Assembly (NCBI GenBank): GCA_946413815.1 | Contig: CAMKMD010000026.1 | Coordinates: 1 to 48,441 of the forward strand | Source: an uncultured Ruminococcus sp. | GTDB taxonomy: Bacteria > Bacillota > Clostridia > Oscillospirales > Ruminococcaceae | Length of the DNA: 48,441 nucleotides | Reading direction: 5' to 3' | Position numbers and translations under genes: made by a program | Notes under the pieces: model-generated | Database searches by the model: none | Told to the model about the DNA's origin: nothing | What the model saw: the letters and a program-made list of their open reading frames with translations, nothing else | Shown: positions 4,181-25,186 of the stretch, piece by piece | How the letters are laid out: each line of letters opens with the position of its first letter | Position numbering within the stretch: position 1 is the first letter of the stretch

Positions 4181-4189
4181 TCATGATCA

Positions 4190-4218: not shown

Positions 4219-4220
4219 AT

Positions 4221-4255
4221 GCGGGTGTGGTGAAATTGGCAGACACGCAAGATTT
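4221..4255 (+). pseudogene. tRNA-Leu(UAG) 5' half, cut in the anticodon loop
   Basis: The first 35 nt of a tRNA-Leu: acceptor strand GCGGGTG, D-arm region and 5' anticodon strand CAAGA, then TTT. It stops after position 34. The matching 3' half (anticodon strand TCTTG, acceptor strand CACCCGC, CCA) is at 25131-25180. Together they make 85 nt, the same length as the intact tRNA at 4433-4517, and both split stems pair perfectly. Confidence 0.9.
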
Positions 4256-4274
4256 CGTTCACGCTACGTCATTG
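4256..4274 (+). repeat. Element left-end sequence, copy 1 (attL side)
   Basis: CGTTCACGCTACGTCATTG follows the split tRNA-Leu 5' half directly. The identical 19 bp occurs at 4360-4378 after another tRNA-Leu 5' half, so it marks the element side of the junction. Confidence 0.85.
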
Positions 4275-4324
4275 AATTATAAAACAGCTTATTCTTTTGT
4301 GCAAAATCAACAAAATTTAATATT

Positions 4325-4359
4325 GCACCTGTGGCGAAATTGGCATACGCGATAGATTT
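4325..4359 (+). pseudogene. Second orphan tRNA-Leu 5' half
   Basis: GCACCTG acceptor strand, D-arm and the anticodon 5' strand up to GATTT; again exactly 35 nt and cut at the same base as 4221-4255. It comes from a different tRNA-Leu (acceptor GCACCTG). No 3' half ending CAGGTGC-A-CCA was found in the window. Confidence 0.85.
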
Positions 4360-4378
4360 CGTTCACGCTACGTCATTG
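4360..4378 (+). repeat. Element left-end sequence, copy 2
   Basis: Same 19 bp as 4256-4274, directly after the second tRNA-Leu 5' half. Including tRNA bases the match between the two junctions is about 25 bp. Confidence 0.85.
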
Positions 4379-4432
4379 GTTTTATAATACTGCTCTTGTC
4401 GGCAGTCCAAATCGACAGTAAAAATTGAATAT

Positions 4433-4517
4433 GCGGATGTGGTGAAATTGGCAGACACGTTAGATTTAGGTTCTAATACCGAGAGGTGTGCAGGTTCAAG
4501 TCCTGTCATCCGCACCA
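4433..4517 (+). tRNA. tRNA-Leu (anticodon UAG), intact
   Basis: 85-nt class II tRNA with encoded CCA. Acceptor GCGGATG pairs with CATCCGC; anticodon stem TTAGA/TCTAA encloses the loop TTTAGGT (anticodon TAG); the long variable arm CCGAGAGG is typical of leucine; the T-arm is GCAGGTTCAAGTCCTGT. It lies inside the element boundaries, reads the same codon as the disrupted gene and could compensate for its loss. Confidence 0.95.
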
Positions 4518-4520
4518 TTC

Positions 4521-4547
4521 AAAAAGTCCGATTATTCGGACTTTTTT
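4521..4547 (+). terminator. Terminator of tRNA-Leu
   Basis: AAGTCCGA - TTAT - TCGGACTT stem-loop followed by TTTT, three bases after the CCA end. Confidence 0.85.
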
Positions 4548-4628
4548 CTTTTGCTCTCTTCTATTTCTATCTTGGTACCGGAGAATGGGGCGCGGAAGGT
4601 GTATTTCGAGTGTATGCCTAAGAATAGC

Positions 4629-4653
4629 AAGCCGCAGGTTTCCCTGCGGCTTT
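4629..4653 (+). terminator. GCCGCAGG hairpin, copy 1
   Basis: GCCGCAGG (4631-4638) pairs with CCTGCGGC (4643-4650), followed by TTT. A near-identical hairpin lies at 7123-7147, so the two bracket the zinc-ribbon gene. Confidence 0.6.
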
Positions 4654-4681
4654 GACTTTACGATTCATTATAGAAACGACA

Positions 4682-7000
4682 CTATTCTTTTTCTTTATCA
4701 TCATTATCGGTCTTATATTTCCATATAAAACCACCTGCTGTCTTTCCTTCACCTCTGCATACCTTATGGATTGATTTTATTCCTGTTTGCCTTTCAGCTT
4801 CCATAGCACTTGGGTATTCAGCGATTACTGTTCCGTCTAAAGATAATTGTACAACACACTTTGCATTGTGGATTATTCTGTTTTCCTTACTACATTGCGG
4901 ACAACCTCTTTTTAAAAAGCTTCGGTTACTAACAGATGCTTTCCACTCATAACTACAAATATGACATTTCCACCAAACTGTTTTATTTGAGCCTTTAACC
5001 ACATCATCAGGAAGTAAAGGTGAGTTTTTTTCGTAATCCCAGTCCAGAGCAATTTCAGGGAATAATGTAGCTAAATCATTATACCCTTTCAGCACTCTAT
5101 GTCCAGAACAGTACGGGCATCCTCTGCCATTTGCTTTATCTCGTACTATCATTTCATATTCATTGCCACAATCAGGGCAATACCACAAGGCTTTCTTATT
5201 AGAACCACTTATAATTTTAGTTGGATCTATTATATTACTCTTTGACCATAATGGGATCAGCTCTGGGTTGGTGGTAAACAAATCATTAAACCCTGATAAT
5301 GCTCTACGTCCCGAACAGCACGGACACCATGGGTGTGAAGCGAAATTACTTACAATTGCTTCCCATTCATGACCTGCTTCGCATTTGAAAAATGCTTTTT
5401 TAACACTTGCATGAGATATTTGTTCCGGTGTAATCTTTCCGTTCTTTTCATAATCCCAGTATTGTATAATCTCTGGGCAACAACTCGCAATTGAATTCTC
5501 TTTTTCAGAAAGATTCATTTTATTCAATATGTCTATTCTATCTCTGTCAACATCAATATCAGCTTCAATGTTCAATTGGAATTTCTGATTAATGAAATCA
5601 AAAATGAAAAGAATTGAATCTTTTAATTGCTGCATATCATAAGGTGGAATATAATGTTTTATCGATTCACTATGGTAATCAGCACAACCATTTTCTCTTA
5701 TTCTAATTAAAATAATGCTGTGCTTTTGGCAAACAATATCTTTCTTTACATCTCTGTCTACATCCTTATGCCAAGCTACACCATCATACTCAATTGCAAC
5801 TTTTAAGTCTGGTATAAAAATATCAAGTTCCTTTCTCCCCAAGAAAGCACTACGATAGTTTTCCATTGCCTTATCAAAATACTGTTTAATATAAAAGAAT
5901 ATCGCCTTTTCTGGAAATGATGTGTGTGTCTCCATCGAGCAAATAGGACAATTTGATCCCTTCTTTCTACTCAAAGGTGTAGCTTGATAACTATGTCCTT
6001 TAGGGCAAATAAACCAGTATTTTTTTATATTGCTTCCTGCCATAACCTCATCTGGATTGCAGTCATTTTTATCATAGTCCCATTCTTGAGCTATTTCAGG
6101 ATTCGTAGTTAAAAGATCATTTTCATTCTTCATTAGGATATTATGACTGCATATTCCACATCCTGAACCAGTTCTTATTCTGCGATGAGCAGCGGCTTGA
6201 TATGAATGACCCTTAGGACATTTCCACCATAAAATTTTAGCACTTCCAATAGTGACATCTTTCATAGAAAAGCCGTTCTTTGCTTCGTCAAATTCATTTA
6301 TTAAATCTTCTCTGTTATTATTGATACAATAGGTATATAAATCATTGTAGCCCACCAGAACTCTCTTATTTGAGCAATAAGGGCAGTTTTGACCTTCACT
6401 CCTGCTTTTGACTTCCGCTTTCCAACTATGTCCTTTGGAGCATTTCCACCAAACTTTCTTATGTGATCCAGCCAATACATCAGATGGCATTAAGTCACCA
6501 TTATTTTCATAGTCCCATTCTGTTATCAATTCTGGATTCGTTGTAGCTAAATCATTATAGCCTGCCATAGCCGAAAAGTTACTGCAATATGGACAACCGT
6601 GACCTTTACTTCTATTAAATACATAAGCTTCCCATTCATGACCGTTCGGGCATTTCCACCATACCTTAATGTTCGCACTATACTTTACCTGGTCAGGAGT
6701 TAGATTACCATTCTTTTCATAGTTCCACGCTGCTGCCACTTCTGGATTAACAGTAGCTAAATCATTAAAACCAGAAAGAAACTTATGATTAGAGCAGTAT
6801 GGACATGGCTTTCCCTCAACTCTGTCTCTTATAATTGCTTCCCATTCATGCCCTTTCTGACACTTCCACCACACTTTCTTATGCGAGCCAGGAAGTACAG
6901 CTGATGGTCGTAATTCTCCGTTTAGGTCATAATTCCATTCTTCAGCTACTTCGGGACTGGTAGTTTGAAGATCATTTATACCTCTTTCAAGTTTAGTCAT
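4682..7000 (-). CDS. Eight zinc-ribbon repeats with embedded endonuclease-like domain and NUMOD-like tail
   Basis: A 772-aa protein built from about eight ~65-residue repeats of the form PE-a-WdY-kNg...GS-kkvWWkC-kGHeWea...R..g..CPyCs...GfNDL, each with two CxxC/CxxGH-type metal sites, resembling the DUF4379 probable zinc-ribbon family. Between repeats 5 and 6 lies a ~100-aa domain with E (FPEKAI), LDIFIPDLKVAIEYDG and WHKD...K, a PD-(D/E)XK or Vsr-like nuclease core. The C-terminus (VVQLSLDGTVIAEYPSAMEA...IHKVCRGEGKTAGGFIWKY) resembles the NUMOD1 DNA-binding helix of homing endonucleases. Start 7000 follows GGTGGAGAT. It is AT-rich relative to its neighbours and flanked by twin hairpins, suggesting separate acquisition. 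A nuclease acting on DNA, perhaps for defence or homing, is inferred. Confidence 0.75.
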   Translation of the reverse strand: MTKLERGINDLQTTSPEVAEEWNYDLNGELRPSAVLPGSHKKVWWKCQKGHEWEAIIRDRVEGKPCPYCSNHKFLSGFNDLATVNPEVAAAWNYEKNGNLTPDQVKYSANIKVWWKCPNGHEWEAYVFNRSKGHGCPYCSNFSAMAGYNDLATTNPELITEWDYENNGDLMPSDVLAGSHKKVWWKCSKGHSWKAEVKSRSEGQNCPYCSNKRVLVGYNDLYTYCINNNREDLINEFDEAKNGFSMKDVTIGSAKILWWKCPKGHSYQAAAHRRIRTGSGCGICSHNILMKNENDLLTTNPEIAQEWDYDKNDCNPDEVMAGSNIKKYWFICPKGHSYQATPLSRKKGSNCPICSMETHTSFPEKAIFFYIKQYFDKAMENYRSAFLGRKELDIFIPDLKVAIEYDGVAWHKDVDRDVKKDIVCQKHSIILIRIRENGCADYHSESIKHYIPPYDMQQLKDSILFIFDFINQKFQLNIEADIDVDRDRIDILNKMNLSEKENSIASCCPEIIQYWDYEKNGKITPEQISHASVKKAFFKCEAGHEWEAIVSNFASHPWCPCCSGRRALSGFNDLFTTNPELIPLWSKSNIIDPTKIISGSNKKALWYCPDCGNEYEMIVRDKANGRGCPYCSGHRVLKGYNDLATLFPEIALDWDYEKNSPLLPDDVVKGSNKTVWWKCHICSYEWKASVSNRSFLKRGCPQCSKENRIIHNAKCVVQLSLDGTVIAEYPSAMEAERQTGIKSIHKVCRGEGKTAGGFIWKYKTDNDDKEKE

Positions 7001-7122
7001 ATCTCCACCTCGTCTCAATGTGCTTTAATAATATTATAACATAATTTTGCTTATATGACAATATGTCCCCGATTTCATGTTCTTTTGAATCAAATCGAAT
7101 CAGCTGTTTATTAACAAATTTT

Positions 7123-7147
7123 GCCGCAGGTCTCCCTGCGGCTTTTT
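7123..7147 (+). terminator. GCCGCAGG hairpin, copy 2
   Basis: GCCGCAGG - TCTC - CCTGCGGC followed by TTTTT. It lies just beyond the recombinase stop; the T run is on the plus strand. It differs from the 4629-4653 hairpin mainly in the loop. Confidence 0.65.
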
Positions 7148-7152
7148 CTGCT

Positions 7153-8727
7153 TTAATCGTTAATCTCAAAGCACCCAGTGCTTGTATCTTTGAAGTCTCC
7201 GTTGAATTCAAGTGTTACATCAAGGCTTCCGTCCTTGTTTTCGTGGACATTTATCTTCCGAACGAGCAGGCGCATATTTGCATCCGAGATGTACGGCTCC
7301 AGTAGCACCTCGTCCAGCAGCTCTGCTGTGGACATCAGTTCGTCGCGGCGCTTCTTGCTGAGTTCGTCGAACTTCCTGCAATCCTCTATCTTCTGCGTCA
7401 GCTCCGCTATCTCGGCTTCACGCTTTTCGATCATGGAATTGTAGACTTTGGCGTGTTCGCGGTCACCGATACGCTCCATTATCAGTTCCTCGATCTGCCC
7501 GTTAAGAGTAACTATCTTTTGCGAATATTCTTTTATCATTTTATCGTATTTAGGCTTCTTTTTGTTCCAGTCCTTTACGATCTCATCGTACTTCTGACTG
7601 GAATCCAGTATCTCCTGACGGAGCATTGCAAGCTCTGTGTGTATTATCTCATCGAGTTGAGGCTCGCGGATAGTGTGAGCAGTGCAGTATTCGTTGCCAT
7701 AGCGATGATTGCTGTTGCAGGTATATTCCACCCATGAGTGCCCTGCTACTGTCCGTTTCTTAGCTATGAGGCTCGCTCCGCACTCGGCACATTTAATCAT
7801 GCCACAGTACCTATGGATAACGCTTCCAAACTTTGCCCTCACCTGCGTACTCTGTCTGCTTTTTAGCAATATCTGTGCCTGCTCGAAGGTCTCTTTGTCA
7901 ATTATCGCAGGCATGAAGTTTTCGTGGCGGTACTGTTCCTCGGGCGGAATGACATCAACAGTCTTATATATCTTTGATGTAACAGTCTTGTGGTTGACAA
8001 GTGTTCCTGTGTACGCCTCGTTCTGGATTATGCGCTTGACCGTTGTTTGCACCCACAAGAATTTCTTGCACATCTGTGTTCTTTGTGCTCCGACCTTTCT
8101 GTGTGAGAAGTATTCCGGCGACTTTATACCGCGGCGGTTGAATTCCTTGGCTATAGTGCTCAGTCCGTATCCTTCAAAGAACTTCTCGAATATCTCTCTG
8201 ACTATCGCTGCCGCCGTTTCATCGACCAGTATCTTACCTGTGAATTTGTCCTTATAGTATCCCATCGGAAGGTTCACAGGCATTCCTGTTTTCTGCTTCT
8301 GGCGAATACCTGCACGAACCTTCTTGCCGATATCCTTAGCGTAGAAATCATTGACGAGCTGCTTGAAGCCGATTATCATATCGTCATTCTCGTTCGATGA
8401 GTCGATGCCCTCGGTCACCGAGTACACCTTGACGCTGTTCTCGCGCAGGTAGTCGATGAACAGCGCTGTTCGTGTTCTATGTCTACCAAGTCGGGACAAG
8501 TCCTTGACCAGCAGGACGTCGACCTTTCCGTCCTCGACTGCAAGCTCTATCTGGTGCAGTCCCTTTCGTTCAAACGTCATACCAGATACGTTGTCATCGA
8601 AGCTCTCGCCGACGATGTCATAACCATTTTGTTCAGCGTAATCTGCAAGTATCTGACGCTGATTCTGAAGACTGTTCATCTCGGCGTCCTCGTCGCGTGA
8701 CAGTCTGTAATATAACCATGCTTTCAT
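7153..8727 (-). CDS. Large serine recombinase (TnpX/TndX type), element integrase
   Basis: A 524-aa site-specific recombinase. The N-terminal resolvase domain has Arg8 and catalytic Ser10 in YYRLSRDED, and the later conserved LLVKDLSRLGRHRTRT segment. The recombinase domain follows (GYYKDKFTGKILVDETAA...IFEKFFEGYG), then a zinc ribbon (CGMIKCAECGASL...CNSNHRYGNEYC) and a coiled-coil region at about residues 390-470. This architecture cuts and joins DNA through a two-base core at att sites and would catalyse integration and excision of the island. GGAGGTATATAA precedes the ATG. A hairpin (8753-8780) sits in its upstream region. Use of a tRNA anticodon loop as target is unusual for this enzyme class; no tyrosine integrase was seen in the element. 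Confidence 0.95.
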   Translation of the reverse strand: MKAWLYYRLSRDEDAEMNSLQNQRQILADYAEQNGYDIVGESFDDNVSGMTFERKGLHQIELAVEDGKVDVLLVKDLSRLGRHRTRTALFIDYLRENSVKVYSVTEGIDSSNENDDMIIGFKQLVNDFYAKDIGKKVRAGIRQKQKTGMPVNLPMGYYKDKFTGKILVDETAAAIVREIFEKFFEGYGLSTIAKEFNRRGIKSPEYFSHRKVGAQRTQMCKKFLWVQTTVKRIIQNEAYTGTLVNHKTVTSKIYKTVDVIPPEEQYRHENFMPAIIDKETFEQAQILLKSRQSTQVRAKFGSVIHRYCGMIKCAECGASLIAKKRTVAGHSWVEYTCNSNHRYGNEYCTAHTIREPQLDEIIHTELAMLRQEILDSSQKYDEIVKDWNKKKPKYDKMIKEYSQKIVTLNGQIEELIMERIGDREHAKVYNSMIEKREAEIAELTQKIEDCRKFDELSKKRRDELMSTAELLDEVLLEPYISDANMRLLVRKINVHENKDGSLDVTLEFNGDFKDTSTGCFEIND

Positions 8728-8752
8728 TTATATACCTCCATTCTTATTGGCA

Positions 8753-8780
8753 GTCGCAGCACCTTGATTGGTGCTACGAC
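8753..8780. repeat. Inverted repeat upstream of the recombinase
   Basis: GTCGCAGCACC pairs with GGTGCTACGAC (10 of 11) around TTGATT, between the small upstream gene and the recombinase ribosome binding site. It could be an attenuator, an operator or a recombinase-binding site. Confidence 0.55.
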
Positions 8781-8800
8781 ACACCATACCACAGACCTCC

Positions 8801-8998
8801 TCAGAAGTCTACTGATTTCTCGTTCGTTCCTGAAATTTCGACCTTATCAACAACATCTGTCTGTGGACATTTGTCTACATCACCCGAATGGAGATAGTCG
8901 CTGAGCAGCGATTTTATGAACAGGTCGAAGCCCTGTGCGTCTCCATTGAATCTGACGTTGATGTTTCTGATTTTCGGTTCTTTGATCTTTCTCCCCAA
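8801..8998 (-). CDS. Small hypothetical protein upstream of the recombinase
   Basis: 65 aa, starting with TTG at 8998 preceded by AAAAGGAG at a 9-nt spacing. Acidic C-terminal half; the stretch INVRFNGDAQGFDLFIKSLLSDYL looks like a folded core. There is no signal or membrane segment and I recognise no family. It is 73 bp upstream of the recombinase on the same strand and may be a small DNA-binding or directionality partner, which is inference only. A second frame overlaps its start (8914-9057). Confidence 0.5.
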   Translation of the reverse strand: MGRKIKEPKIRNINVRFNGDAQGFDLFIKSLLSDYLHSGDVDKCPQTDVVDKVEISGTNEKSVDF

Positions 8999-9057
8999 TA
9001 TACCACGCTCCTTTTATGTCTTACGTTTGTGTTTCTGATGTGAACTGCATTGTTCAT
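8914..9057 (-). CDS. Possible 47-aa basic peptide overlapping the small gene
   Basis: ATG 9057 has AAAGGAG at 9-nt spacing. The peptide is Arg/Lys/Ser-rich (MNNAVHIRNTNVRHKRSVVYWG at its start) and overlaps the TTG-start gene in another frame. It may be a leader peptide that couples translation, or simply a chance frame. Only the ribosome binding site supports it. Confidence 0.22.
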   Translation of the reverse strand: MNNAVHIRNTNVRHKRSVVYWGERSKNRKSETSTSDSMETHRASTCS

Positions 9058-9085
9058 GTTACATTTCTCCTTTGAATTATTTTGA

Positions 9086-9553
9086 AGGGTACGGTGCCTT
9101 GCCGTACCCTTGTTGTACATAAAGGGTATCGTGAAACGTGATACCCTTTGATTATTGTGATGAGGTAACGTTTCGTGACGCTTTCCCCTGGCCGAACGTA
9201 TCGTTCTGTCAGCTCATACCTTCCGTTATGGATGATTTGAAGGTGCTGCCGTTTTGGCAACGCCTGTTAGGTACTGAAAGTTTCGTTCTGCACCTACAAA
9301 GGGATGACCGTCTCGTTCACACCTGTCCCACTTTATGGCAGGTGTAGTACGGTGAACCCTTTGTTCACCGTGTGCTTACAGCGTGTTTCCCTTACATCAG
9401 GACTGTCCGTTTTGGACACCCCTTGCTGAGCCTGCGATTTGTCGGCTCAAGTATATGAGGTGGTGGTTTACCACCTCAAAATTATGACGGGATATTTCAT
9501 CCCGTCATACCAAATTCCCATTTTGGTAACTCGTGGCAGTCACGTTTCGTTAC
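9086..9553. repeat. Array of about 15 consecutive hairpins
   Basis: 468 bp between the relaxase stop and the small gene consist almost wholly of back-to-back inverted repeats with different stems. Clear examples: 9086-9110 (AGGGTACGG/CCGTACCCT), 9121-9149 (AAAGGGTATC/GATACCCTTT), 9190-9210, 9242-9264 (GGTGCTGCC/GGCAACGCC), 9268-9296, 9319-9345 (ACACCTG/CAGGTGT), 9351-9369 (GGTGAAC/GTTCACC), 9404-9418 (TGTCC/GGACA), 9422-9451, 9456-9478 (TGAGGTGGT/ACCACCTCA), 9483-9509 (TATGACGGGAT/ATCCCGTCATA) and 9508-9528 (TACCAAA/TTTGGTA). Loops are short and T-rich on the plus strand (TTT, GTTTT, GGTTT, ATTTC). A CGTTTCG/TTTCGTTC motif recurs, also found at the element's left end. No open reading frame or CRISPR-like spacing explains it. 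Confidence 0.85.
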
Positions 9554-10884
9554 CCCATGTGCATACCGAGTTCTTCCTTTTTCCTGAGCTCCTTCGCGAG
9601 TGCCTTGCTGTCAACGTGTTCCCGAGCGTACTCGGTATCGTCGGCAGGCTCGTCCTCGATTATCGAAGCCACAGCTGTAACGCCGCCGACAATGCTATCA
9701 AGACTGACTGCGAGATCACTATCCACTTGGCTACTTTCAATCTTAGCTTGTGCTTGTATTCGTCGAGCTCTTTCAGCTTCGAGCCATATTCCTCGTTCAG
9801 TTTCCCAGCCTGTGATGACAGGTCCGCTGTTGCTTTCTTCAACTGCTCGACTGCTAAAGTCGCGGTTTCCGACGTTTGATCCAGCAGCTCCCGACAGGTC
9901 GCTATGGTATCTCTCTGCTCGGAGCGGACTGTTTTCAGCACCTGTTCCGTTTCGGCTTTCGTCGCCAGCACCGAGAGTCTGGTGAGTATTTCCAGCTGCT
10001 CCTGCGACATCAGCTTGTTCAATTCTATCAGCGCTCTCCAGTTGGAATCGAGCACCACCACTGTCGGCTGAGTGTCCGCCGCTGCCGACAATTCCTTGTC
10101 GTACATCTGCTGCAATTCTTCTTGCTTTGAATTCATACTCCATATTCTCCTTTCTGTACTTCTCACCGTGAAGCTTATTGTCACGGCATCTTCTGCCATT
10201 AGGACAAGTGTAGGTGATATACTTTCGGTTGTCCTCCCACCTGACATCATAGCCCTGCTGCTTCATCAGGAAGCAGAACTGCTTCTTGGTCTTTGCTTGC
10301 TTCATGACTTGATTTATGACGTTCATCAGCTCCCACTTGAAGCTCTCGCCACGCTTGGCTGACCTGTATTCGCTGTCGGACAGGTAGTCCCTGTTCATTT
10401 TCTTCTTTGGAGTGTCGAGGACATGAACTCCGTACCGCTGACAAATCTCATCGCTGAGTTTCATCAGCTGTTCAACACTCTCCTTGTTTGAATGATACTT
10501 CTTTCCGTCCTCGAAGCTGACAGAGTTCAGTACCAAATGGCTGTGGATATGCTCCCTGTCGATATGAGTTGCGACTACAACTTCGTATTTGTTGAAGGCT
10601 TTCTCCGCAAGCTCCACTGCTATTTTGTGTACGAGCTCAGGGTCAATCTCATATCCGCTGGGGAAGCTCTGCACCAGATGATAGTACAACCGACCGTCAG
10701 GCTTGTGATACAAGTTCTTGGTCGCTGTCATTTCGTCGAGTGCAGTTTCTGGCGAGCAGTTGACTCCTGTCACGAAACGCTTGTCCTCGGACACGGTCTT
10801 TTCCTTTCTGCTGACGTAGTTAATGACGTTCCTCATGCCGCCAGCGGTCTGAGTTTTGTTGTTTATGAAATGGATTATAGGCAT
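9550..10884 (-). CDS. mobA: MOBP-type relaxase / mobilization nuclease
   Basis: A 444-aa relaxase that would nick oriT and pilot single-stranded DNA during mobilization. Seen: the N-terminal catalytic tyrosine region NYVSRKEKT (Tyr23), YYHLVQSF near residue 68 and the metal-binding three-histidine motif THIDREHIHSHLVLN (His112, His114, His116). Residues of about 260-445 are Gly/Ser/Ala-rich low complexity, and this part overlaps another gene in a different frame. ATG 10884 shares bases with the mobC stop codon (TGATG), so translation is coupled; the earlier GTG at 10887 is less likely. No VirB or coupling-protein genes are nearby, so the element depends on a helper. Confidence 0.93.
   Translation of the reverse strand: MPIIHFINNKTQTAGGMRNVINYVSRKEKTVSEDKRFVTGVNCSPETALDEMTATKNLYHKPDGRLYYHLVQSFPSGYEIDPELVHKIAVELAEKAFNKYEVVVATHIDREHIHSHLVLNSVSFEDGKKYHSNKESVEQLMKLSDEICQRYGVHVLDTPKKKMNRDYLSDSEYRSAKRGESFKWELMNVINQVMKQAKTKKQFCFLMKQQGYDVRWEDNRKYITYTCPNGRRCRDNKLHGEKYRKENMEYEFKARRIAADVRQGIVGSGGHSADSGGARFQLESADRIEQADVAGAAGNTHQTLGAGDESRNGTGAENSPLRAERYHSDLSGAAGSNVGNRDFSSRAVEESNSGPVITGWETERGIWLEAERARRIQAQAKIESSQVDSDLAVSLDSIVGGVTAVASIIEDEPADDTEYAREHVDSKALAKELRKKEELGMHMG
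9660..10136 (-). CDS. MobB-like coiled-coil membrane protein encoded inside mobA
   Basis: A 158-aa protein read from a different frame within the relaxase 3' half. ATG 10136 has AAAGGAG about 10 nt upstream. It is helical throughout (NSKQEELQQMYDKEL..., TLAVEQLKKATADLSSQAGK), consistent with coiled coil, and ends in one membrane helix (WIVISQSVLIALSAALQLWL). In IncQ plasmid RSF1010 the mobB gene likewise lies inside mobA in another frame and its product has a membrane segment needed for transfer efficiency; the same arrangement here suggests an analogous role. The overlapping relaxase tail is of low complexity, as if the inner frame were the one under constraint. Confidence 0.72.
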   Translation of the reverse strand: MNSKQEELQQMYDKELSAAADTQPTVVVLDSNWRALIELNKLMSQEQLEILTRLSVLATKAETEQVLKTVRSEQRDTIATCRELLDQTSETATLAVEQLKKATADLSSQAGKLNEEYGSKLKELDEYKHKLRLKVAKWIVISQSVLIALSAALQLWLR

Positions 10885-11195
10885 CACTTCACCACCTTTG
10901 CTATGTCGCAGACTGCCGCTGTCACCGCCCTGTGCTGTTCAATAAGCTCGTCCAGTCTGACAGAGTGGAGCCGTCCTTCGTGTGCCAGCATTGCTATCTG
11001 ATTGAGATTCCGCCCGATAGCTTTCTGCTGCTTTGCGACCTCGTCCAATCCGTCAGCCACGATTATCTTTTTGTCCATAGCCGACCTGAGAACAAAGTCA
11101 CTGAGGGACAGCTTATGACGCTGAGCCTTGCTGTGTATCCGCTCATACTCGTCATCGGTACAGCGGATTGTGATCGTTCTGTTTCTCTTTCGCAT
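10884..11195 (-). CDS. mobC: MobC-like relaxosome accessory protein
   Basis: A 103-aa protein with an N-terminal ribbon-helix-helix (RTITIRCTDDEYERIHSKAQRHKLSLSDFVLRSAM) and a helical C-terminus (VAKQQKAIGRNLNQIAMLAHEG...), as in MobC proteins that bind and open oriT for the relaxase. AAAGGAGG precedes the ATG. It overlaps the relaxase start by one base and is the first gene of the mobilization operon. oriT probably lies just upstream (11230-11400). Confidence 0.88.
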   Translation of the reverse strand: MRKRNRTITIRCTDDEYERIHSKAQRHKLSLSDFVLRSAMDKKIIVADGLDEVAKQQKAIGRNLNQIAMLAHEGRLHSVRLDELIEQHRAVTAAVCDIAKVVK

Positions 11196-11259
11196 GTTTC
11201 GACCTCCTTTGCTTCCGTTTCGTTTTTGTAGGGACGCGCCGACATTGAGACTTTATGTC

Positions 11260-11360
11260 CGTTTTGACTATGCGGAGGCGCCATTGGGCGCGGCACCTCG
11301 CCGCAGGGGGTTCGGGGCACTCCCTGACCAGCAAGCGTTCGGCGGACTGCCGAATGCGAT
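11260..11360. other. Candidate oriT upstream of mobC
   Basis: The 366-bp gap between mobC and the RepA-like gene holds a GC-rich stretch with an imperfect inverted repeat at 11335-11357 (GCGTTCGGC/GCCGAATGC, 8 of 9) next to a G/C-run (CCGCAGGGGGTTCGGGG at 11301-11317). An inverted repeat beside a conserved short run, directly upstream of mobC/mobA, is the usual layout of MOBP oriT sites. I cannot identify the nick site. Confidence 0.4.
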
Positions 11361-11537
11361 GCTGGCATTTCATACCTCCGCCGCCTGTACTGCTCCGTCA
11401 GCGGTAGTTTTTCTCCTTATGCCAATGCCGCCACACTCGCTCGACGTTGCGCGACAACCGCTTTCACCGCCGCAGGTGGGATACCTATCCGCTTTTGGTA
11501 TTGGCGGCAAAAACGGCGCGTTTTGTGCGTGGCTTTA

Positions 11538-11703
11538 CCGTCACCCGAGACCGTTATACCGTCACCCTGAGACACCTATGCCGTCACCCGCATTTTTACC
11601 GTCACCCGCCTCAAACAAAGGTAAATAGATGTTTTCAGAACTTCGGGTGCCGGCATGGTCAGCAATTTCTACCCACAGCAGGCTTCCATTTTTACTGTCA
11701 CCC
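11538..11703. repeat. Iteron-like direct repeats CCGTCACCC
   Basis: CCGTCACCC occurs at 11538, 11559, 11581 and 11599 (spacing 21, 22 and 18 bp, about two helical turns), with a diverged copy CTGTCACCC at 11695. They lie at and just past the 3' end of the RepA-like gene and overlap its last codons. This is the expected form of initiator-binding iterons. Confidence 0.65.
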
Positions 11704-12692
11704 GACTGGTCATAAATGAGTTCCAGTATTCGAGCTCCGTGACTTCTGCGCATACTGAATTGCACACCGTACACTTTTAATTCTTCGGTATGCTGAACAA
11801 GATTTCGCGTGATCCAGTTCGGAGCATACTCGCGACCGAAGTGTTTGTACATCAGCTTGCAGAGTTCAGTTGCAGAACCTGTGAAACGTTTCTCATCTAC
11901 CATGAGATCATGTATGGCAAAAGAGAAAAGGTCTGGCTTGCGCTCCGGCACATCGTCAACCACATTCCACCTGTGATTTGCGAACTCCAAATTCAATTCA
12001 AGGTGTTCGATGTCACGACCTGCGCAGTGCAGTTTTGCTTTACCGCTGCCGCGACGCTCTTCTATCATCACCATGATACCGTCAACGCTTCCGATGATAC
12101 CAGTTGAACCTGATACCATATTGAACGGATCACTGTCATAGCACTTGCGCGTATGATGCACGACAAGTATTGCGACTTTCAGTTTGTCCGCAAGCGCTTT
12201 CAGCACAGATAGTTCTTTGTAGTCAGAGCCGTAGTTGACATCAGTGCTGCATCTGACCTTCTGCAACGTATCGATGACAATTACCTTTAAGTCAGGAAGT
12301 TCCTGTTTACTTTTTTCAAGTTCTCCTTCAAGACCGTTGCCTATCGACTGCGCTTCGATTGCGAAGTTGAGATTCTCAGAAGGTTCATCTGTGAGTTCGT
12401 ATATCCTGTTCTGCAAGCGCAGGAGGTTGTCCTCGAGACTGAGATACAATACCTGACCAATATTTGTATCATGTTTGAGGAACTGCTCGCCGTTAGCGAC
12501 AGACAAACATAAGTCCAATGCTAACCACGACTTGCCTATCTTCGGTGCGCCTGCAAGGATATACAGACCGGGATACATCATTTTGTAGATGATGAAGTCC
12601 TGCTTTTCCAGCGGAGTTGTCATAATGTACTCGCTGTTATAGATCGTTAATTCGTTACCTATAAAACCATCTCCTTCTTTTTTCTTGGACAC
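11562..12692 (-). CDS. RepA-like AAA ATPase (hexameric helicase family)
   Basis: 376 aa. Walker A GAPKIGKSW at about residues 48-56, Walker B-like VIVIDTLQKV near residue 140 and VHHTRK near residue 178 match the RecA-like AAA_25/RepA family, including plasmid RSF1010 RepA helicase. It probably unwinds the element's origin or supports replication after excision. The frame opens with GTG at 12692, which has no clear ribosome binding site; ATG 12623 (MTTPLEKQDF) is an alternative start that keeps Walker A. The C-terminal residues (GDGKNAGDGIGVSG) are encoded by the iteron repeats, so the gene end and the repeat array overlap. Confidence 0.8.
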   Translation of the reverse strand: MSKKKEGDGFIGNELTIYNSEYIMTTPLEKQDFIIYKMMYPGLYILAGAPKIGKSWLALDLCLSVANGEQFLKHDTNIGQVLYLSLEDNLLRLQNRIYELTDEPSENLNFAIEAQSIGNGLEGELEKSKQELPDLKVIVIDTLQKVRCSTDVNYGSDYKELSVLKALADKLKVAILVVHHTRKCYDSDPFNMVSGSTGIIGSVDGIMVMIEERRGSGKAKLHCAGRDIEHLELNLEFANHRWNVVDDVPERKPDLFSFAIHDLMVDEKRFTGSATELCKLMYKHFGREYAPNWITRNLVQHTEELKVYGVQFSMRRSHGARILELIYDQSGDSKNGSLLWVEIADHAGTRSSENIYLPLFEAGDGKNAGDGIGVSG

Positions 12693-12939
12693 AGCCGACA
12701 GCTTTTTTCATTACGGGCAACCATGAAAGAGTAACGCTAACGAAAATAGTGGGTTACCGAGCCAGTAATTAATAGCTTAGAAATAATGTACCACGATTCT
12801 GCCAGCAGGGGCTCCCCGCCGCGCGAACTATTTGTGTTGGCTGTGTCGGGCGGATATTTGCTCTACCAAGTGAAAAATGTGGGAGCAGTATCCTTTTTGC
12901 ATTTTTAGCATTTTAATCACCTCCTGAGCAAACAAAAAA

Positions 12940-12977
12940 AGCGCACAGCAGTCCGTGACGGACCACTGTGCGCTTTA
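12940..12977 (-). terminator. Strong terminator hairpin
   Basis: AAAGCGCACAG pairs with CTGTGCGCTTT, with an inner GTCCGT/ACGGAC. On the minus strand it is followed by TTTTTTT. It is a second stop after the large RNA. Confidence 0.8.
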
Positions 12978-12996
12978 AATTTATTTTTTGACAATA

Positions 12997-13616: not shown

Positions 13617-13622
13617 ATTATC

Positions 13623-16799: not shown

Positions 16800-16821
16800 T
16801 ATTATCCCCTCCAAAAAACAC

Positions 16822-19809: not shown

Positions 19810-19876
19810 GAGATACCCTCCTTGTAAAAACGCAAATATATCTGATATGTTTTATACACAGTTTACTCATATTTTT

Positions 19877-19904
19877 ATTGTAACATAACAACTAAAAATG
19901 TCAA
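19877..19904 (-). promoter_or_regulatory. Promoter of the PL1-DUF6055 operon
   Basis: TTGACA (19904-19899), 16-bp spacer, TACAAT (19882-19877) on the minus strand, with the shared operator adjoining upstream. Confidence 0.78.
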
Positions 19905-19944
19905 TTCACAAATCGGATATAAAATTGCACTTTTTGGATATTGT
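19899..19944 (-). promoter_or_regulatory. AraC-type operator upstream of PL1
   Basis: On the minus strand two direct half-sites, ATCCAAAAAGTG and ATCCGATTTGTG, are spaced 21 bp start to start; the proximal one abuts the -35 box. The same ~43-bp block occurs at 22191-22234 before PL11 with only a few differences. The geometry is that of AraC-family activator sites. Confidence 0.75.
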
Positions 19945-19965
19945 ATCTGAAATGAGTAATATTTC

Positions 19966-19995
19966 TTGACGAAGCGAACTGCATTGTTGTATAAT
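19966..19995 (+). promoter_or_regulatory. Promoter of the AraC-type regulator
   Basis: TTGACG (19966-19971), 18-bp spacer, TATAAT (19990-19995), divergent from the PL1 promoter. Confidence 0.7.
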
Positions 19996-20027
19996 GAAAG
20001 AAAGCATACTAAAAGGAGCGTGTGAAG

Positions 20028-22181
20028 ATGAAGTTCGGAAATATCGGTGTCGTTGCAGGAAGCATTTTCGGCACAATGGCAAAGGAATATCTGCGTGGCA
20101 TTTCTCAGGCTGCAAAGGAGAAAAATCTGAAAGTCTTAGTCTTTGCATCGCTTGAATCCTTTGAGATAGAGGAGGATTATGAAAAAGGCGAACTCGCTCT
20201 CCTGGAAAGTGTAAACTACGGTGTATTAGACGGTATTATCTTTATTCCAAACAGCTTCACGCTTCGTTCATTCGGCGACAAGGTGTATGAAATCTTGCAG
20301 AAACGCTGTACAGTACCAATAGTCATTATGGACGACGTGCTTACTTATCAGCCTGATGTTATCGCCGATCATGAGAAGGCGTTTGCTGCTTTGACATCTC
20401 ATATGATTGAAGCACACAACTGCACTGACATTGTACTCATTGCAGGTCCGGAGGGTGAAGTCCTCTCGGAGCAGCGCATTTCCGGTTTCAGGAACAGTCT
20501 TGCAGAACACGGTCTGAGCTGTGCAGAGGATACTATCATCTATGGTGATTACTGGCTTAATGCACCCACTTCGTATGCTGAAAAGCTGGTTTCAGGTGAG
20601 ATTCGTAAGCCACAGGCAGTTCTCTGTGCCAATGACATTATGGCGATAACGCTCGCAAGGGCGTTAGCCAAAAAAAGCTGGGAAGTACCACAAGACCTGG
20701 CAATCGCAGGCTATGACGGAACTGACTATGCCTTCAACAGTCACCCCCGTATCACAAGCTGTCTGCCAGCCTATGCAGAAGCCGGACATGAAGCAGTCCA
20801 AACGCTGATAGCCAAGATCAACGGTATCAAAAATGAACCCCAAAGAATAAATGCCGGAAAGCTCATTATTGGCGAAAGCTGCGGCTGTCTGCACTGTAAC
20901 TTAGGAGAAAATGCAGAAAGGAATCATGAGCTTTATTATGATTCACTGTTTGATGAGTTCTATGATAACCGGAATATGCTCATGCGTGTTGCAACTGCGC
21001 AGTCTCTGAGCGAATTTATGCGAAAGCTGTATCGGAATATGATACCGTCTGTAATGATACATAAACTCTGTCTGCGGAAGAACTGGCTGAATGAAGCGAT
21101 ATCCTCTCCGCTTCAGGAAAATGAGATACTTATGGAAATGCAGCCCGACGGCTCGTACATAGAATTCCCTGCTTCATCGCTGTTGCCGCCGGATTATCCG
21201 ATACTCAACGAGAACCGCCTGATATTCTTCACCTCGCTTCATTTCGGTATGGATTTCTATGGCTATTCCGTGGCTCAGAGCGGTGAGGGAAAGATCACGT
21301 TTGAATCGGTATATCGTAGATTCTGTCATGAGGTCAATGTGGCTCTTGAAGAAATACGAATGCGTAATCGACTGAAAACATCTGTGTATAAAATGCACCT
21401 TGCTTCGATACGCGATCCGCTTTCCGGTTCTATCGACTGGGGAGCTCTGCTGAACTTCATGATGTGGCTATCCGAGAACTCACAGCTCAGCACAGAGCGC
21501 TTTGCAATTATGCTTGTATTTGTCAAATCCCGCGACAGCAATAGCAATATCCAGCTAAAAGTCAAAAAGAGCATACAGAATTCGATCTCTAAGGAACTTA
21601 GCTATATCCGGATAAATGATTCCACATACTGTATCTTCGGTATGACCGAAAATGATAAGATACTGACCATGATCGAGGATAGCATTTCTCAGGAGCAGCA
21701 AAATGAAAACTGTTCGCTCGGCTTCTATCACGAATACTTCAAAAGCGGTATAAGCCGTGAGGAGTTCCTCAGCAATATGAACCGTCTGAGGCAGATGTTT
21801 GAGCCAAAGACGATCAGTGAAGAGCTTGCGCCTGTTCACAGCCGCTATGTCAAAATGCTCAAATTTATACGCAAGGAGATATATGAGCACCCACAGGCTG
21901 AATACAGCAAGGAGAGCTTCGCAGAATCCATGTATGTCAGCACAATGTATTTCCAGAAGCTGTATAAGCAGATGTTCGGCATTCCGTTTACCCGGGATCT
22001 GATCGAAGCGCGTATCGCTATGGCAAAGGAGCTGCTTTCGGAAACCAATCTTCCGGTCGCTGAGGTGGCTGAGGCGTGCGGCTATAAAAACCTTCCTTAC
22101 TTTATCCGTCAGTTCAGTCATGAGACTGGTGACACGCCGAATCATTTCAGAAAGCATAAACGCTCTGAGAACACTGACTGA
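20028..22181 (+). CDS. AraC-family regulator with LacI-type sensor domain
   Basis: 717 aa. Residues of about 1-285 resemble the LacI/periplasmic-binding sugar sensor (GNIGVVAGSIFGTMAKEYLRGI..., ALLESVNYGVLDGIIFIPN, VLCANDIMAITLARAL, IAGYDGTDYAFNSHPRIT). About 440-570 look like a degenerate GGDEF fold (RDPLSGSIDWGALL) without the GGDEF motif. The C-terminal ~100 residues are an AraC double helix-turn-helix (SKESFAESMYVSTMYFQKLYKQMF...VAEVAEACGYKNLPYFIRQFSHETGDTPNHFRK). ATG 20028 lies 9 nt from GGAG; the GTG at 20022 is too close. Flanked by two lyase promoters with identical tandem sites, it is the probable activator of both in response to a pectin-derived sugar. Confidence 0.88.
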   Translation: MKFGNIGVVAGSIFGTMAKEYLRGISQAAKEKNLKVLVFASLESFEIEEDYEKGELALLESVNYGVLDGIIFIPNSFTLRSFGDKVYEILQKRCTVPIVIMDDVLTYQPDVIADHEKAFAALTSHMIEAHNCTDIVLIAGPEGEVLSEQRISGFRNSLAEHGLSCAEDTIIYGDYWLNAPTSYAEKLVSGEIRKPQAVLCANDIMAITLARALAKKSWEVPQDLAIAGYDGTDYAFNSHPRITSCLPAYAEAGHEAVQTLIAKINGIKNEPQRINAGKLIIGESCGCLHCNLGENAERNHELYYDSLFDEFYDNRNMLMRVATAQSLSEFMRKLYRNMIPSVMIHKLCLRKNWLNEAISSPLQENEILMEMQPDGSYIEFPASSLLPPDYPILNENRLIFFTSLHFGMDFYGYSVAQSGEGKITFESVYRRFCHEVNVALEEIRMRNRLKTSVYKMHLASIRDPLSGSIDWGALLNFMMWLSENSQLSTERFAIMLVFVKSRDSNSNIQLKVKKSIQNSISKELSYIRINDSTYCIFGMTENDKILTMIEDSISQEQQNENCSLGFYHEYFKSGISREEFLSNMNRLRQMFEPKTISEELAPVHSRYVKMLKFIRKEIYEHPQAEYSKESFAESMYVSTMYFQKLYKQMFGIPFTRDLIEARIAMAKELLSETNLPVAEVAEACGYKNLPYFIRQFSHETGDTPNHFRKHKRSENTD

Positions 22182-22190
22182 ATGTTGTAT

Positions 22191-22234
22191 ATTATCCAAA
22201 AAGTGTAATTTTCTATCCGATTTGTGGATTGACA
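22191..22234 (+). promoter_or_regulatory. AraC-type operator upstream of PL11
   Basis: Direct half-sites ATCCAAAAAGTG and ATCCGATTTGTG with 21-bp spacing, the second abutting TTGACA. Nearly identical to the block before PL1 (19899-19944) but on the opposite strand. Confidence 0.77.
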
Positions 22235-22257
22235 AGTATCCAGCACTGCTTTATAAT
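22229..22257 (+). promoter_or_regulatory. Promoter of the PL11 gene
   Basis: TTGACA (22229-22234), 17-bp spacer, TATAAT (22252-22257). It leaves a leader of about 170 nt. Confidence 0.82.
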
Positions 22258-22324
22258 GAAAATATGATTTAGCCGTGAATAACGAAACATATTTTAAAAT
22301 TCGCAAGTAAATTGGTGCCTATGG

Positions 22325-22413
22325 ATAATGCTCCGCTGAACGGGGATTATCATAGAAATTGTTCTGTAAGGGGGACAATTCGGGTAAGGCTGGCTAATAA
22401 GCCAGCCTTTATC
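22325..22413 (+). other. Hairpin-rich 5' leader of the PL11 mRNA
   Basis: Three stem-loops in the untranslated leader: GATAAT/ATTATC with CCG/CGG (22324-22351), AATTGT/ACAATT (22357-22380) and GGCTGGCT-AATA-AGCCAGCC (22388-22407) followed by TTTA. The last resembles an attenuator with a weak T-run; transcript stabilisation is an alternative. Confidence 0.45.
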
Positions 22414-22435
22414 AAAATAAGGAGGATCACTTGTC

Positions 22436-25012
22436 ATGAAGAAAAAAAGATTACTTTCTGCATTTTGTGCTGTCTGCATTGGCGTATCTGCCTTGAATGT
22501 GCCGACAGCCTGTTTGTCCGTCAATGCTGCAACAGCAAACAACACTGCCTTCAACAATACGGCTGGTATGACCGTGGAGTACCTTGACCGTGGTATCTGT
22601 GCAGTCAACACCGGCAGCGGAATGCTTGTTAACTGGCGTTTCCTTGCGACTGACCCTGACAATGCCATATTCAAGCTGTATCGGGACAATACGCTCATCT
22701 ACACCTCGACAGAAAAGGCGAATGGTGCGACTTGTTTCCTCGACAAGTCCGGCAATGCAAACTCTGCTTACAAAGTTGAGACATACAACGGAACACAGCT
22801 CATAGCAAGTGATAATTGCACAATTAAATCATCTAACGCCTATTTTGACATCAAGCTCGACCAGCCGGGCAAGGGCTCTGACGGTGGCACCTACTCGCCG
22901 AACGACATGAGTGTCGGTGATGTGGACGGTGACGGTGTGTATGAACTGTTCGTGAAGTGGGATCCCTCCACATCGAAGGACAACTCACAGAAAGGCAAGA
23001 CCGACAAGGTCTATATCGACTGCTACAAGCTCGACGGCAAGAAGCTTTGGCGCATTGACCTCGGCGTGAATATCCGTGCAGGAGCGCACTATACGCAGTT
23101 CTATGTGGCAGACTTCGACCTTGACGGTAAGTGCGAAATGACCTGCAAGACCTCGGACGGAACGGTTGACGGAACAGGCAAAGTCATTGGTGACAAATCT
23201 AAAGTCTATCGTGACAGCAGCGGTCTGATCTACTCAGGCAATGAATTCTACACGCTGTTTGACGGCGCGACCGGTGTGGCACTGGATACGGTTAATTACG
23301 AGCCGGGGCGCGGTGATCCGACCAAATGGGGCAAGTCCTCCGATAAGTTCAACCGTGTGGAGCGCTACTGGGGCAGTGTTGCCTATCTGGACGGTGTGCA
23401 TCCAAGTGTTATCACAGGTCGTGGCTATTACGGAAGATTGACTGCAACGGCATATTCCGTGGAGAACAAGAAACTCAAGAAGCTCTGGACATTTGATACA
23501 GGCACAAGCTCCTCCAACGCAGGATACGGCGACGGTAATCACAATTCTATGGTCGCCGATGTAGATAATGACGGCAAGCACGAAATTATTACCGGTTCAA
23601 CGTGTATCGACCATGACGGTAAATTGAAATGGAACACCAACACCGGTCACGGAGATGCACTCCATGTGGGTGACCTTGACCCGAGCAATCCGGGTATTGA
23701 AGTCTGGACTTGTCATGAGGACAGTCCTTATGGTGTGTCACTCATTGATGCAGATACGGGAAAAACGCTCTTTAGAAACAACGGCTCCGGCGATACGGGA
23801 CGCTGCTGTGCGGATAATGTCTGGGCAGGCAATCCCGGTGCAGAACTATGGGGTAACGGCAACGAAGTCAAGGGTGTGAATGGTGCAACTCTCAACTGCC
23901 GCCGTCCAGCTATAAACTTTCTCAGCTACTGGGACGGAGACTTGGAGCGTGAGATCTTAGACGGTTACACCGATTCTCCTGCGACTATCTCCAAACTGAC
24001 CGGTGATGCCGGCAAGACAACAATCACAAACCTACTGTCCACTGACGGCTATTACACCTGCAACACTACCAAGGGCACTCCTTGCCTGAGCGCCGATATT
24101 TTTGGTGACTGGCGCGAAGAGCTTGTCGTCCGCAAGGCTGACGGCAGCGGCATCCGCATCTATACGACTACCTACGACACGGACTACCGTGTACAGTGCC
24201 TGATGCACGACCCGCAGTACCGTGTACAGGTCTCCTCGCAGAACACTGCCTACAACCAGCCCCCTCACACTAGCTTCTTCCTCGGCACGGGTTATGATAT
24301 GCCGGCACGTCCTGCCTGCACTGTTCTCGGCGGTGGAAGCCGTCCTGACGATATTATCGAGGTAGAGCCGATAAAAGGCACGCTCATCAGTGAACTCAAT
24401 ATCAAGGATACAACATATTACAAAAGCTGGGGCATTGACAGCTCCCTTGCAGTTGGTGATACAGTTTTCGGAGACAGAGAGGCTGAGAGATGCGCTGTTT
24501 CTGAACTGCCGGCTTATCTTGAAGGTGCAGAGCTGATACTTACTCCCTGCGATGCAAAGAATTCTGATAAAGAACAGGCTGAACTAACTTTTGCCAAGGA
24601 CTGCACTCTCTATGTTGGACTGGACAGCCGTGTGGAAAATGTCCCCTCATGGCTTTCGGGCTTCACAAAGATTGAAGATACGGTCAATACTTCCAACGGC
24701 GTAACATTTGTGTTGTACACGAAGTCTGTCAGTGTTGAAGAAAAGTTGATACTCGGTGCAAACGGACAAGCCACAAGCTGTATGAACTACATTGTAATGG
24801 CTTCAACAGCAGAGCCTACTGCAATAATCCGCGGTGATGTCAATGCAGACGGTGAATCCAATGTTGCTGATTTAGTCACATTGCAAAACTGGCTTCTTGC
24901 TAAACCTGACTCTAAACTTGCTGACTGGAAAGCAGGAGATTTGTGTGAAGATGACAGGCTCGATGTATTTGATTTGGTTTTAATGAGGCGTTTGCTGGTT
25001 TCAATAGAATAA
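22436..25012 (+). CDS. PL11 rhamnogalacturonan lyase with dockerin
   Basis: 858-aa secreted enzyme that would cleave the rhamnogalacturonan-I backbone. A signal peptide ends near residue 32. Residues of about 45-640 match family PL11 (Bacillus YesW/YesX-like): MTVEYLDRGICAVNTGSGMLVNWRFLATD at the start of the domain, calcium loops such as VGDVDGDGVYELFVKWDPS, ADFDLDGKCEM and VADVDNDGKHEI, GNHNSMV, and the C-terminal QPPHTSFFLGTGYDMP. About 655-795 is the module also found in the PL1 enzyme (WGID-SLAVGD-FGDR). Residues of about 796-858 are a dockerin. AAGGAGG is 10 nt from the ATG. It is controlled by an operator shared with PL1 and lies next to the regulator. Confidence 0.93.
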   Translation: MKKKRLLSAFCAVCIGVSALNVPTACLSVNAATANNTAFNNTAGMTVEYLDRGICAVNTGSGMLVNWRFLATDPDNAIFKLYRDNTLIYTSTEKANGATCFLDKSGNANSAYKVETYNGTQLIASDNCTIKSSNAYFDIKLDQPGKGSDGGTYSPNDMSVGDVDGDGVYELFVKWDPSTSKDNSQKGKTDKVYIDCYKLDGKKLWRIDLGVNIRAGAHYTQFYVADFDLDGKCEMTCKTSDGTVDGTGKVIGDKSKVYRDSSGLIYSGNEFYTLFDGATGVALDTVNYEPGRGDPTKWGKSSDKFNRVERYWGSVAYLDGVHPSVITGRGYYGRLTATAYSVENKKLKKLWTFDTGTSSSNAGYGDGNHNSMVADVDNDGKHEIITGSTCIDHDGKLKWNTNTGHGDALHVGDLDPSNPGIEVWTCHEDSPYGVSLIDADTGKTLFRNNGSGDTGRCCADNVWAGNPGAELWGNGNEVKGVNGATLNCRRPAINFLSYWDGDLEREILDGYTDSPATISKLTGDAGKTTITNLLSTDGYYTCNTTKGTPCLSADIFGDWREELVVRKADGSGIRIYTTTYDTDYRVQCLMHDPQYRVQVSSQNTAYNQPPHTSFFLGTGYDMPARPACTVLGGGSRPDDIIEVEPIKGTLISELNIKDTTYYKSWGIDSSLAVGDTVFGDREAERCAVSELPAYLEGAELILTPCDAKNSDKEQAELTFAKDCTLYVGLDSRVENVPSWLSGFTKIEDTVNTSNGVTFVLYTKSVSVEEKLILGANGQATSCMNYIVMASTAEPTAIIRGDVNADGESNVADLVTLQNWLLAKPDSKLADWKAGDLCEDDRLDVFDLVLMRRLLVSIE

Positions 25013-25021
25013 ATATACTCC

Positions 25022-25054
25022 AAGCGCGCAGGTCATTGATAACTTGCGCGCTTT
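25022..25054 (+). terminator. Terminator of the PL11 gene
   Basis: AAGCGCGCA pairs with TGCGCGCTT across a loop that itself can pair partly (GGT/AAC), followed by TC-rich sequence. Confidence 0.75.
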
Positions 25055-25111
25055 CTGTCTATAACAGCTACCAATATTTTTAATTGATCGAATACCAACT
25101 TATTATTACCA

Positions 25112-25130
25112 ACAACGTTACATTACCATT
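25112..25130. other. Element right end (attR side)
   Basis: ACGTTACATTACCATT ends directly at the tRNA 3' half. Reversed, it shows partial symmetry with the left end, including ACGT at the same distance (bases 11-14) from the TT core. Confidence 0.6.
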
Positions 25131-25180
25131 AGGTTCTTGTGCCGAAAGGTGTGCAGGTTCAAGTCCTGTCACCCGCACCA
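25131..25180 (+). pseudogene. tRNA-Leu(UAG) 3' half
   Basis: Starts at AGG of the anticodon loop, continues with TCTTG, variable arm GTGCCGAAAGGTG, a T-arm identical to the intact tRNA-Leu, acceptor strand CACCCGC, A and CCA. It complements the 5' half at 4221-4255 exactly. Confidence 0.9.
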
Positions 25181-25186
25181 AACAAC

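Follow-up and report, generated by a model that had tools for sequence, protein, structure and literature searches.

A tRNA-Leu gene divided by a 20.9-kb element

The window analysed here is one whole contig of genome G000, an uncultured Ruminococcus sp. (CAMKMD010000026.1, 48,441 nt), and it contains a tRNA-Leu(UAG) gene (Leu1) whose two halves are separated by an inserted element. When the 35-nt and 50-nt halves were joined by script, ARAGORN called the resulting 85-nt sequence tRNA-Leu(tag), in agreement with a first-pass annotation that had read the halves as the ends of such an element. That annotation had proposed searching for an uninterrupted tRNA with the acceptor GCGGGTG between the Cys4 and sigma genes, and G365, a genome of the same genus, has one: a tRNA-Leu(UAG) 99% identical over 85 nt to the rejoined gene and flanked by the same Cys4 gene and sigma factor. 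By BLASTN, window positions 2062-4255 matched 7484-9721 of locus L209 in G365 (83%), and positions 25129-28527 matched 9720-13123 of the same locus (98.6%). The two matches overlap on G365 by exactly two bases, TT, which are bases 33-34 of the tRNA at a single empty site. Because the flank matches adjoin and overlap in this way, the limits of the insert and its TT core could be set as given in Table 1. The comparison also bore out that a 20.9-kb element is bounded by the halves, that the cut lies in the anticodon loop and that the host gene is really broken. A 2-bp core is as expected of a large serine recombinase.

The left end of the element is more complex than had been annotated. Behind the broken Leu1 half lie a second broken 5′ half (Leu2) and then an intact tRNA-Leu(UAG) carried by the element, the only tRNA that ARAGORN called in the window. 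The two broken halves are cut after AGATTT, and each is followed by the same 18-nt arm and a spacer. Leu2 is probably an older broken half left by another insertion. The overall reading of the first-pass annotation thus held for the broken tRNA, the element ends and the type of recombinase, and it missed the complete carried tRNA-Leu(UAG) and the older second half.

Element proteins were typed by a Pfam scan of the nine large proteins. The only recombinase among them was of the large serine type, as annotated, with Resolvase, Recombinase and zinc-ribbon domains; its S10, which we take to be the catalytic serine, was invariant in 11 aligned relatives. We found no tyrosine integrase and no conjugation family among these nine proteins, small open reading frames (ORFs) lying outside the scan. 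Because of its gene content, namely an integrase, a relaxase and mobilization genes of its own, the element is classed as an integrative and mobilizable element (IME); its precise ends and the empty site in a relative (G365, core TT) agree with this.

Table 1. Features of the element and its surroundings in the window
Feature	Position	Strand	Support
5′ half of host tRNA-Leu(UAG) (Leu1), to base 34	4221..4255	+	12/12 pairing with the half at 25131; intact in G365
3′ half of host tRNA-Leu(UAG) (Leu1), 50 nt	25131..25180	+	
Inserted element, 20,875 bp; core TT at 4254-4255 and 25129-25130	4256..25130		Junctions against G365, L209 9720-9721
Outer left end, 69 nt: 18-nt arm CGTTCACGCTACGTCATT and spacer	4256..4324	+	97.1% identical in G358
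Second broken tRNA-Leu 5′ half (Leu2, acceptor GCACCTG), same cut base	4325..4359	+	Identical 35-nt half in G358
Inner left end: same 18-nt arm and spacer (73 nt), with TATAAT	4360..4432	+	
Intact carried tRNA-Leu(UAG)	4433..4517	+	ARAGORN; genome tRNA census
Right end arm of element	25101..25130	+	Relatives have similar right ends
Large serine recombinase, predicted integrase	7153..8727	-	PF00239, PF07508, PF13408
Relaxase (MobA/VirD2-like)	9550..10887	-	PF03432
NikA/MobC-like mobilization protein	10884..11195	-	PF21983, PF05713
AAA_25 ATPase, RepA-like by resemblance	11562..12692	-	PF13481
DUF4379 zinc-finger-repeat protein	4682..7018	-	PF14311
Cargo: DUF6055 protein with dockerin	14097..16832	-	PF19527, PF00404
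Cargo: large protein, TSP3 repeat, weak dockerin match	16822..19809	-	PF18884; PF00404 below cut-off
Cargo: regulator, sugar-binding and AraC-type DNA-binding domains	20022..22181	+	PF13377, PF12833
Cargo: family 11 rhamnogalacturonan lyase, weak dockerin match	22436..25012	+	PF21348, PF18370; PF00404 below cut-off
Left neighbour, host Cys4 gene	3521..4180	+	Also left of tRNA in G365
Right neighbour, host sigma-70-family factor	25540..26094	+	PF04542; 99% in G365

The carried copy is the sole tRNA-Leu(UAG) found in its genome

A census with RF00005 gave 42 tRNA matches in G000 (completeness 95.6%), 41 of which were typed by ARAGORN, leaving one short match on contig C3 uncalled. The leucine anticodons were UAA (two, one of odd length), CAG, CAA, GAG (two) and UAG (one), and the single Leu(UAG) is the copy carried by the element. 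A 74-nt tRNA called Leu(UAA) at G000:C3:108566-108638 is too short for a class II tRNA-Leu and is possibly mis-typed.

Across the genus, a pattern for the intact UAG anticodon arm matched in 90 of 125 genomes, the remaining 35 being uninformative. Second matches occurred in four genomes: in G317, G396 and G415 they were broken halves reading AGGTTGC, and in G308 a chimera, described below; the single match of G402 was poor. The carried tRNA of the window is identical in sequence to those of G310 (R. flavefaciens Y1), G412, G394 and G343. The broken halves that precede it vary among these four genomes, and that of G412 equals the outer half of the window.

The layout recurs across the recombinase family

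We collected the best 80 of 161 recombinase relatives from GTDB genomes (46-94% identical). At 59 of these 80 loci, an intact tRNA-Leu lies past the 3′ end of the recombinase gene on the opposite strand, at a median distance of 236 nt (largest 6,439). Its anticodon is UAG in 30 cases and CAG in 29, with no other leucine anticodon among them, and all other kinds of tRNA together number 12 in the same 995 kb around the relatives; the one match of L247 was dropped as doubtful. Broken 5′ halves were present within 4 kb on the outer side of the tRNA in 47 of the 59 loci, compared with none on the inner side and none antisense. At position 34, 69 of 70 broken halves had the base that corresponds to the carried anticodon. 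These counts were stable at one, two and three mismatches (47 outer, 0 inner and 0 antisense loci each time; 70, 70 and 71 halves). We quote them because a looser search with four mismatches was noisier (49 outer, 6 inner-side and 9 antisense loci).

The choice between UAG and CAG follows the recombinase phylogeny closely: on a tree of 59 sequences (58 loci and the window), the target changes three times, against a mean of ∼20 after shuffling. L290, whose recombinase is in two pieces, was omitted from the tree, and in-frame stops in L240 and L262 were treated as X.

Within the genus, broken halves were present in 42 of 125 genomes. This number combines 29 genomes with the left-end pattern, from which G376 (L057) was dropped as a false left-end match, 14 with a variant pattern (11 of them new), and three otherwise seen (G340, G317 and G396). 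The decayed candidates G328, G405 and G373 lie outside the count, and the halves of G367 and G206 are decayed. At loci with the left-end pattern, between one and four halves, each cut in the anticodon loop, are stacked ahead of an intact tRNA-Leu(tag); apart from the false G376, the exceptions were G319 and G390, where the contig breaks off at the left site. The arrangement is also seen on the complete chromosome of R. bicirculans 80/3, where three broken halves precede an intact Leu(CAG) gene and a right end follows ∼8 kb on. The sole other full-length match to this Leu(CAG) tRNA in the chromosome is Leu(UAG).

Outside these genomes, recombinase relatives in plasmid and phage records were all below 60% identity, and viral contigs contained no match to either the exact 24-nt left end or the recombinase profile. 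L265 (JAMPAJ010000003.1), labelled Alistipes, has a family recombinase with broken halves and a tRNA-Leu(CAG); it is probably a mislabelled bin, the alternative being transfer across phyla.

Broken halves pair with the right end of the element

We scored the fit between broken 5′ halves and the 3′ half at the right end at 12 positions (7 of the acceptor and 5 of the anticodon stem) in 12 loci where the stack and the right end lie on the same stretch; the first ten were chosen by us, and G368 (L151) and G340 (L099) were added on checking. L102, L255 and L301, where the broken half is not in view, lay outside the test, and right ends on contigs other than those of their stacks were left unpaired. 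A broken half paired at all 12 positions in 11 of the 12 loci, including G368; in G340, whose 3′ half is decayed, it paired at 11. The carried 5′ half differs from the broken one in seven of the twelve loci and scored 7-10 there, while in the other five the two are alike and the test is uninformative. As a control, halves of other loci reached 12 in 7 of 162 comparisons.

The partner of the right end is the outer half in the window and the inner half in G310, L248 and G340, and for this reason two modes of insertion seem to occur: into the carried tRNA of a resident element, and as a whole stack moving as a block. Alternatively, a resident that once lay between two right ends could have been lost from the window later. 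Moving blocks would fit the comparison with G358, which has one half (35/35) and its spacer (97%) in common with the window behind a different outer half. Elsewhere, at L102 (G357:C42), a right end lies ∼3.4 kb from an intact tRNA-Leu(UAG), accompanied by a recombinase fragment only and with the broken half not in view; a further 3′ fragment lies near 9.4 kb of the reversed locus.

The spacing between halves is not always short. We identified 27 distinct longer units in relatives, none of them in the window, most with an ORF in the direction of the tRNA; some start with GGAGG and ATG just after the arm. Ten unit proteins were scanned, giving two GNAT acetyltransferases, one rhomboid, one FMN reductase, one weakly PD-(D/E)XK-like protein and five without a family. 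G304 and G393 have a cassette in common (97.7% over 308 nt), followed by different tRNA halves. In G308 (L106 806-890, G308:C24), two different halves form a chimeric tRNA-Leu with acceptor-stem mismatches, which ARAGORN still calls tRNA-Leu; exchange between an outer left and an inner right site would be expected to yield such a chimera.

Core dinucleotide and expression of the carried tRNA

Immediately before AGG, the right ends of UAG elements read CCATT, CCCTT or GCATT, and those of CAG elements CCCTC or TCCTC. Since G365 fixes TT, the core is most simply read as base 33 plus the wobble base 34, which gives TT for UAG; for CAG we infer a TC core.

Wherever a broken half was found, the carried tRNA lies behind it in the same direction, often at 68-74 nt in the subfamily of the window and at 125-128 nt in many CAG elements. 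Because of this close, co-directional placement, we predict that transcription starting at the host tRNA promoter reads through into the carried tRNA, this being the simplest source of a transcript, to which a spacer promoter may add: spacers in the window's subfamily have TATAAT or TATAAA at a fixed place, as judged by simple scoring. The 125-128-nt spacers of the CAG type (e.g. L272 and L156) contain a conserved hairpin-like stretch, CCACCTCGG...CCGAGT.

Other genes of the element

The cargo is probably of a plant-cell-wall type, judging from its domains. A 47-nt inverted repeat (19899-19945 and 22188-22234, 89% complementary) flanks the gene of the AraC-type regulator; the repeats may be operators, or else the borders of an inserted gene. 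The DUF4379 protein has zinc-finger repeats around a nuclease-like part with a weak homing-endonuclease match, and an 81% identical copy occurs at the same place in G342.

A spare tRNA probably delivered with the insertion

Taken together, these observations are best explained by an IME that entered the anticodon loop of the host tRNA-Leu(UAG), likely through the action of its own large serine recombinase, and whose whole left-end tRNA-Leu(UAG) is a predicted replacement. From sequence comparison, we put the probability of this explanation at roughly 0.86. Given the recurrent layout and the agreement at base 34 in 69 of 70 halves, it is very likely that the element disrupts an essential tRNA gene while bringing in a whole spare. 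Insertion at the TT core has split the host gene, and the carried copy would take over from it, likely sustaining host translation. Since it has the same anticodon loop, the carried tRNA would in turn be the attachment site of the next element, which would break this copy and supply another, so that stacked halves would be a record of earlier insertions. Through recombination between an outer left site and an inner right site, stacked halves could travel together as a block; this would account for the window, where the outermost half rather than the inner one matches the right end.

Several observations weigh against this explanation. No 3′ partner of Leu2 was found in the window, nor one of the outer half of G310 in the 66.8 kb beyond its right end; because these partners are absent, the stacking model depends in part on the assumption that they were lost or that halves moved as a block. 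The right end of G357 likewise has no partner in view. In 12 of the 59 loci there is no broken half within 4 kb, and 21 of the 80 relatives have no tRNA-Leu, of which 11 end within 1.7 kb of the gene and 10 do not. The best match from plasmid and phage records, a recombinase of 48.5% identity on a plasmid of Subdoligranulum variabile, lies on a 41.5-kb stretch without any tRNA. Finally, the spacer promoter candidate is confined to some subfamilies.

Compatible with the replacement model is the proposal that the carried tRNA is an addiction module, with hostage-keeping as the main selective reason for its presence. Decoding of CUA needs tRNA-Leu(UAG), and because the host copy is broken, a cell could survive loss of the element only if excision were exact. 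The sole UAG copy in G000 and the one intact match in each matching genome of the genus, G308 excepted, are in line with this proposal. The hostage effect may, however, be a mere consequence of replacement, and as the main selective reason we consider it unlikely.

Stacked halves might instead have arisen by tandem duplication or gene conversion of the start of the tRNA gene. Such a process would account for the regular spacing of ∼104-108 nt in several stacks, and the cassette of G304 and G393 that is followed by different halves suggests that some exchange between halves does take place. However, every half stops at the recombinase cut with an element arm behind it, the spacers differ and may hold different genes, and the inner half has its own right end in G310 and L248, which makes serial insertion the preferred origin of the stacks and duplication or conversion an improbable one.

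Since mobile elements do carry tRNAs, the spare copy could also be a translation aid suited to the codon use of the element, as proposed for phage tRNAs. This idea fits poorly with a carried anticodon, UAG or CAG, that in 69 of 70 cases equals that of the broken gene, with a position directly behind the broken gene, and with a carried copy that is the only UAG leucine tRNA found in its own genome. CUA is moreover rare in the host genes of the window (13 of 7,524 codons), and we regard a primary role in element codon use as very improbable.

The intact gene at the left end looks like a restored gene, as would be expected of ordinary restoration, in which the element supplies a new 5′ half only and the intact tRNA is a hybrid of element 5′ and host 3′ sequence. 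The host 3′ half, however, sits 20.9 kb away at the right end, where its pairing score is 12/12 with the outer broken half but 9/12 with the carried 5′ half, and the same contrast was observed in six other loci where the two halves differ, making restoration of this kind hardly tenable. That the perfectly pairing halves are transcribed separately and joined in trans, as are the split tRNAs of some archaea, can be dismissed given the adjoining intact gene of the same anticodon, the uninterrupted gene in G365 and the fact that such joining is, to our knowledge, not known in bacteria of this kind.

Comparison with known systems

The element resembles Tn4451/TndX and other Firmicutes IMEs with serine integrases in having one large serine recombinase, a relaxase and a mobilization protein, as well as a 2-bp core and insertion within a gene. 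According to the available part of a review, site-specific IMEs of this kind disrupt dispensable genes, and others insert with low specificity (PMC5704250). In contrast, the element of the window breaks a tRNA gene for which no second copy was found, and brings a whole spare. Islands of the Islander type likewise have their attachment site in a tRNA gene; in the accessible text of PMC4383910 they use tyrosine integrases, restore the gene with an attP fragment, and include anticodon-loop crossovers among their recorded sub-sites. The element described here has a recombinase of the serine family instead and delivers a complete tRNA gene: a whole separate tRNA is carried and both host halves are displaced, unlike restoration by a fragment.

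A serine integrase acting in a tRNA gene is not described in the portions available of PMC5704250, PMC4383910, PMC10083194, PMC6907783, PMC12884075, PMC4701971 and PMC11476347, with one exception, an integrase of S. meliloti located at a tRNA gene, for which similarity to a tyrosine integrase as well as to a serine recombinase is stated (PMC11476347, in part). In the main text of the serine recombinase survey PMC10083194, as far as available, the term tRNA does not occur. Our search of the open-access literature, supplements aside, returned no published title on this arrangement, which is likely to be new.

The longer units of the relatives also invite comparison with integrons. Integron cassette arrays consist of single-gene cassettes between recombination sites, with attC sites and a tyrosine integrase of the IntI type. 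The stacks of the relatives may resemble them, in that short units, many of them with a single gene, lie in one direction between repeats of a putative recombination site. They differ in that the repeated site is a tRNA 5′ half with a serine-recombinase arm, and in that the units appear to have been left by large elements. Tentatively, and at somewhat less than even odds, the family could be viewed as an integron-like system on a tRNA platform run by a serine recombinase, in which units pile up and travel as blocks and the tRNA is both site and hostage. An arriving element would break the current tRNA-Leu and hand over a new one driven by the host tRNA promoter. The unit left behind would consist of an attachment arm, sometimes one gene, and a tRNA 5′ half, and could be expressed from that promoter. 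Because the crossover dinucleotide contains the wobble base, the anticodon would decide which isoacceptor is attacked.

We therefore describe a well supported new way for a mobilizable element to live in a tRNA gene. The whole recombinase family appears to share one solution, which is to break a tRNA gene without a second copy and to deliver a complete spare, and a core gene of translation would thereby become a horizontally moving part. The stacked halves would provide a readable record of past insertions, and the recombinases that separate UAG from CAG are a natural set for learning how serine integrases choose their site and core dinucleotide.

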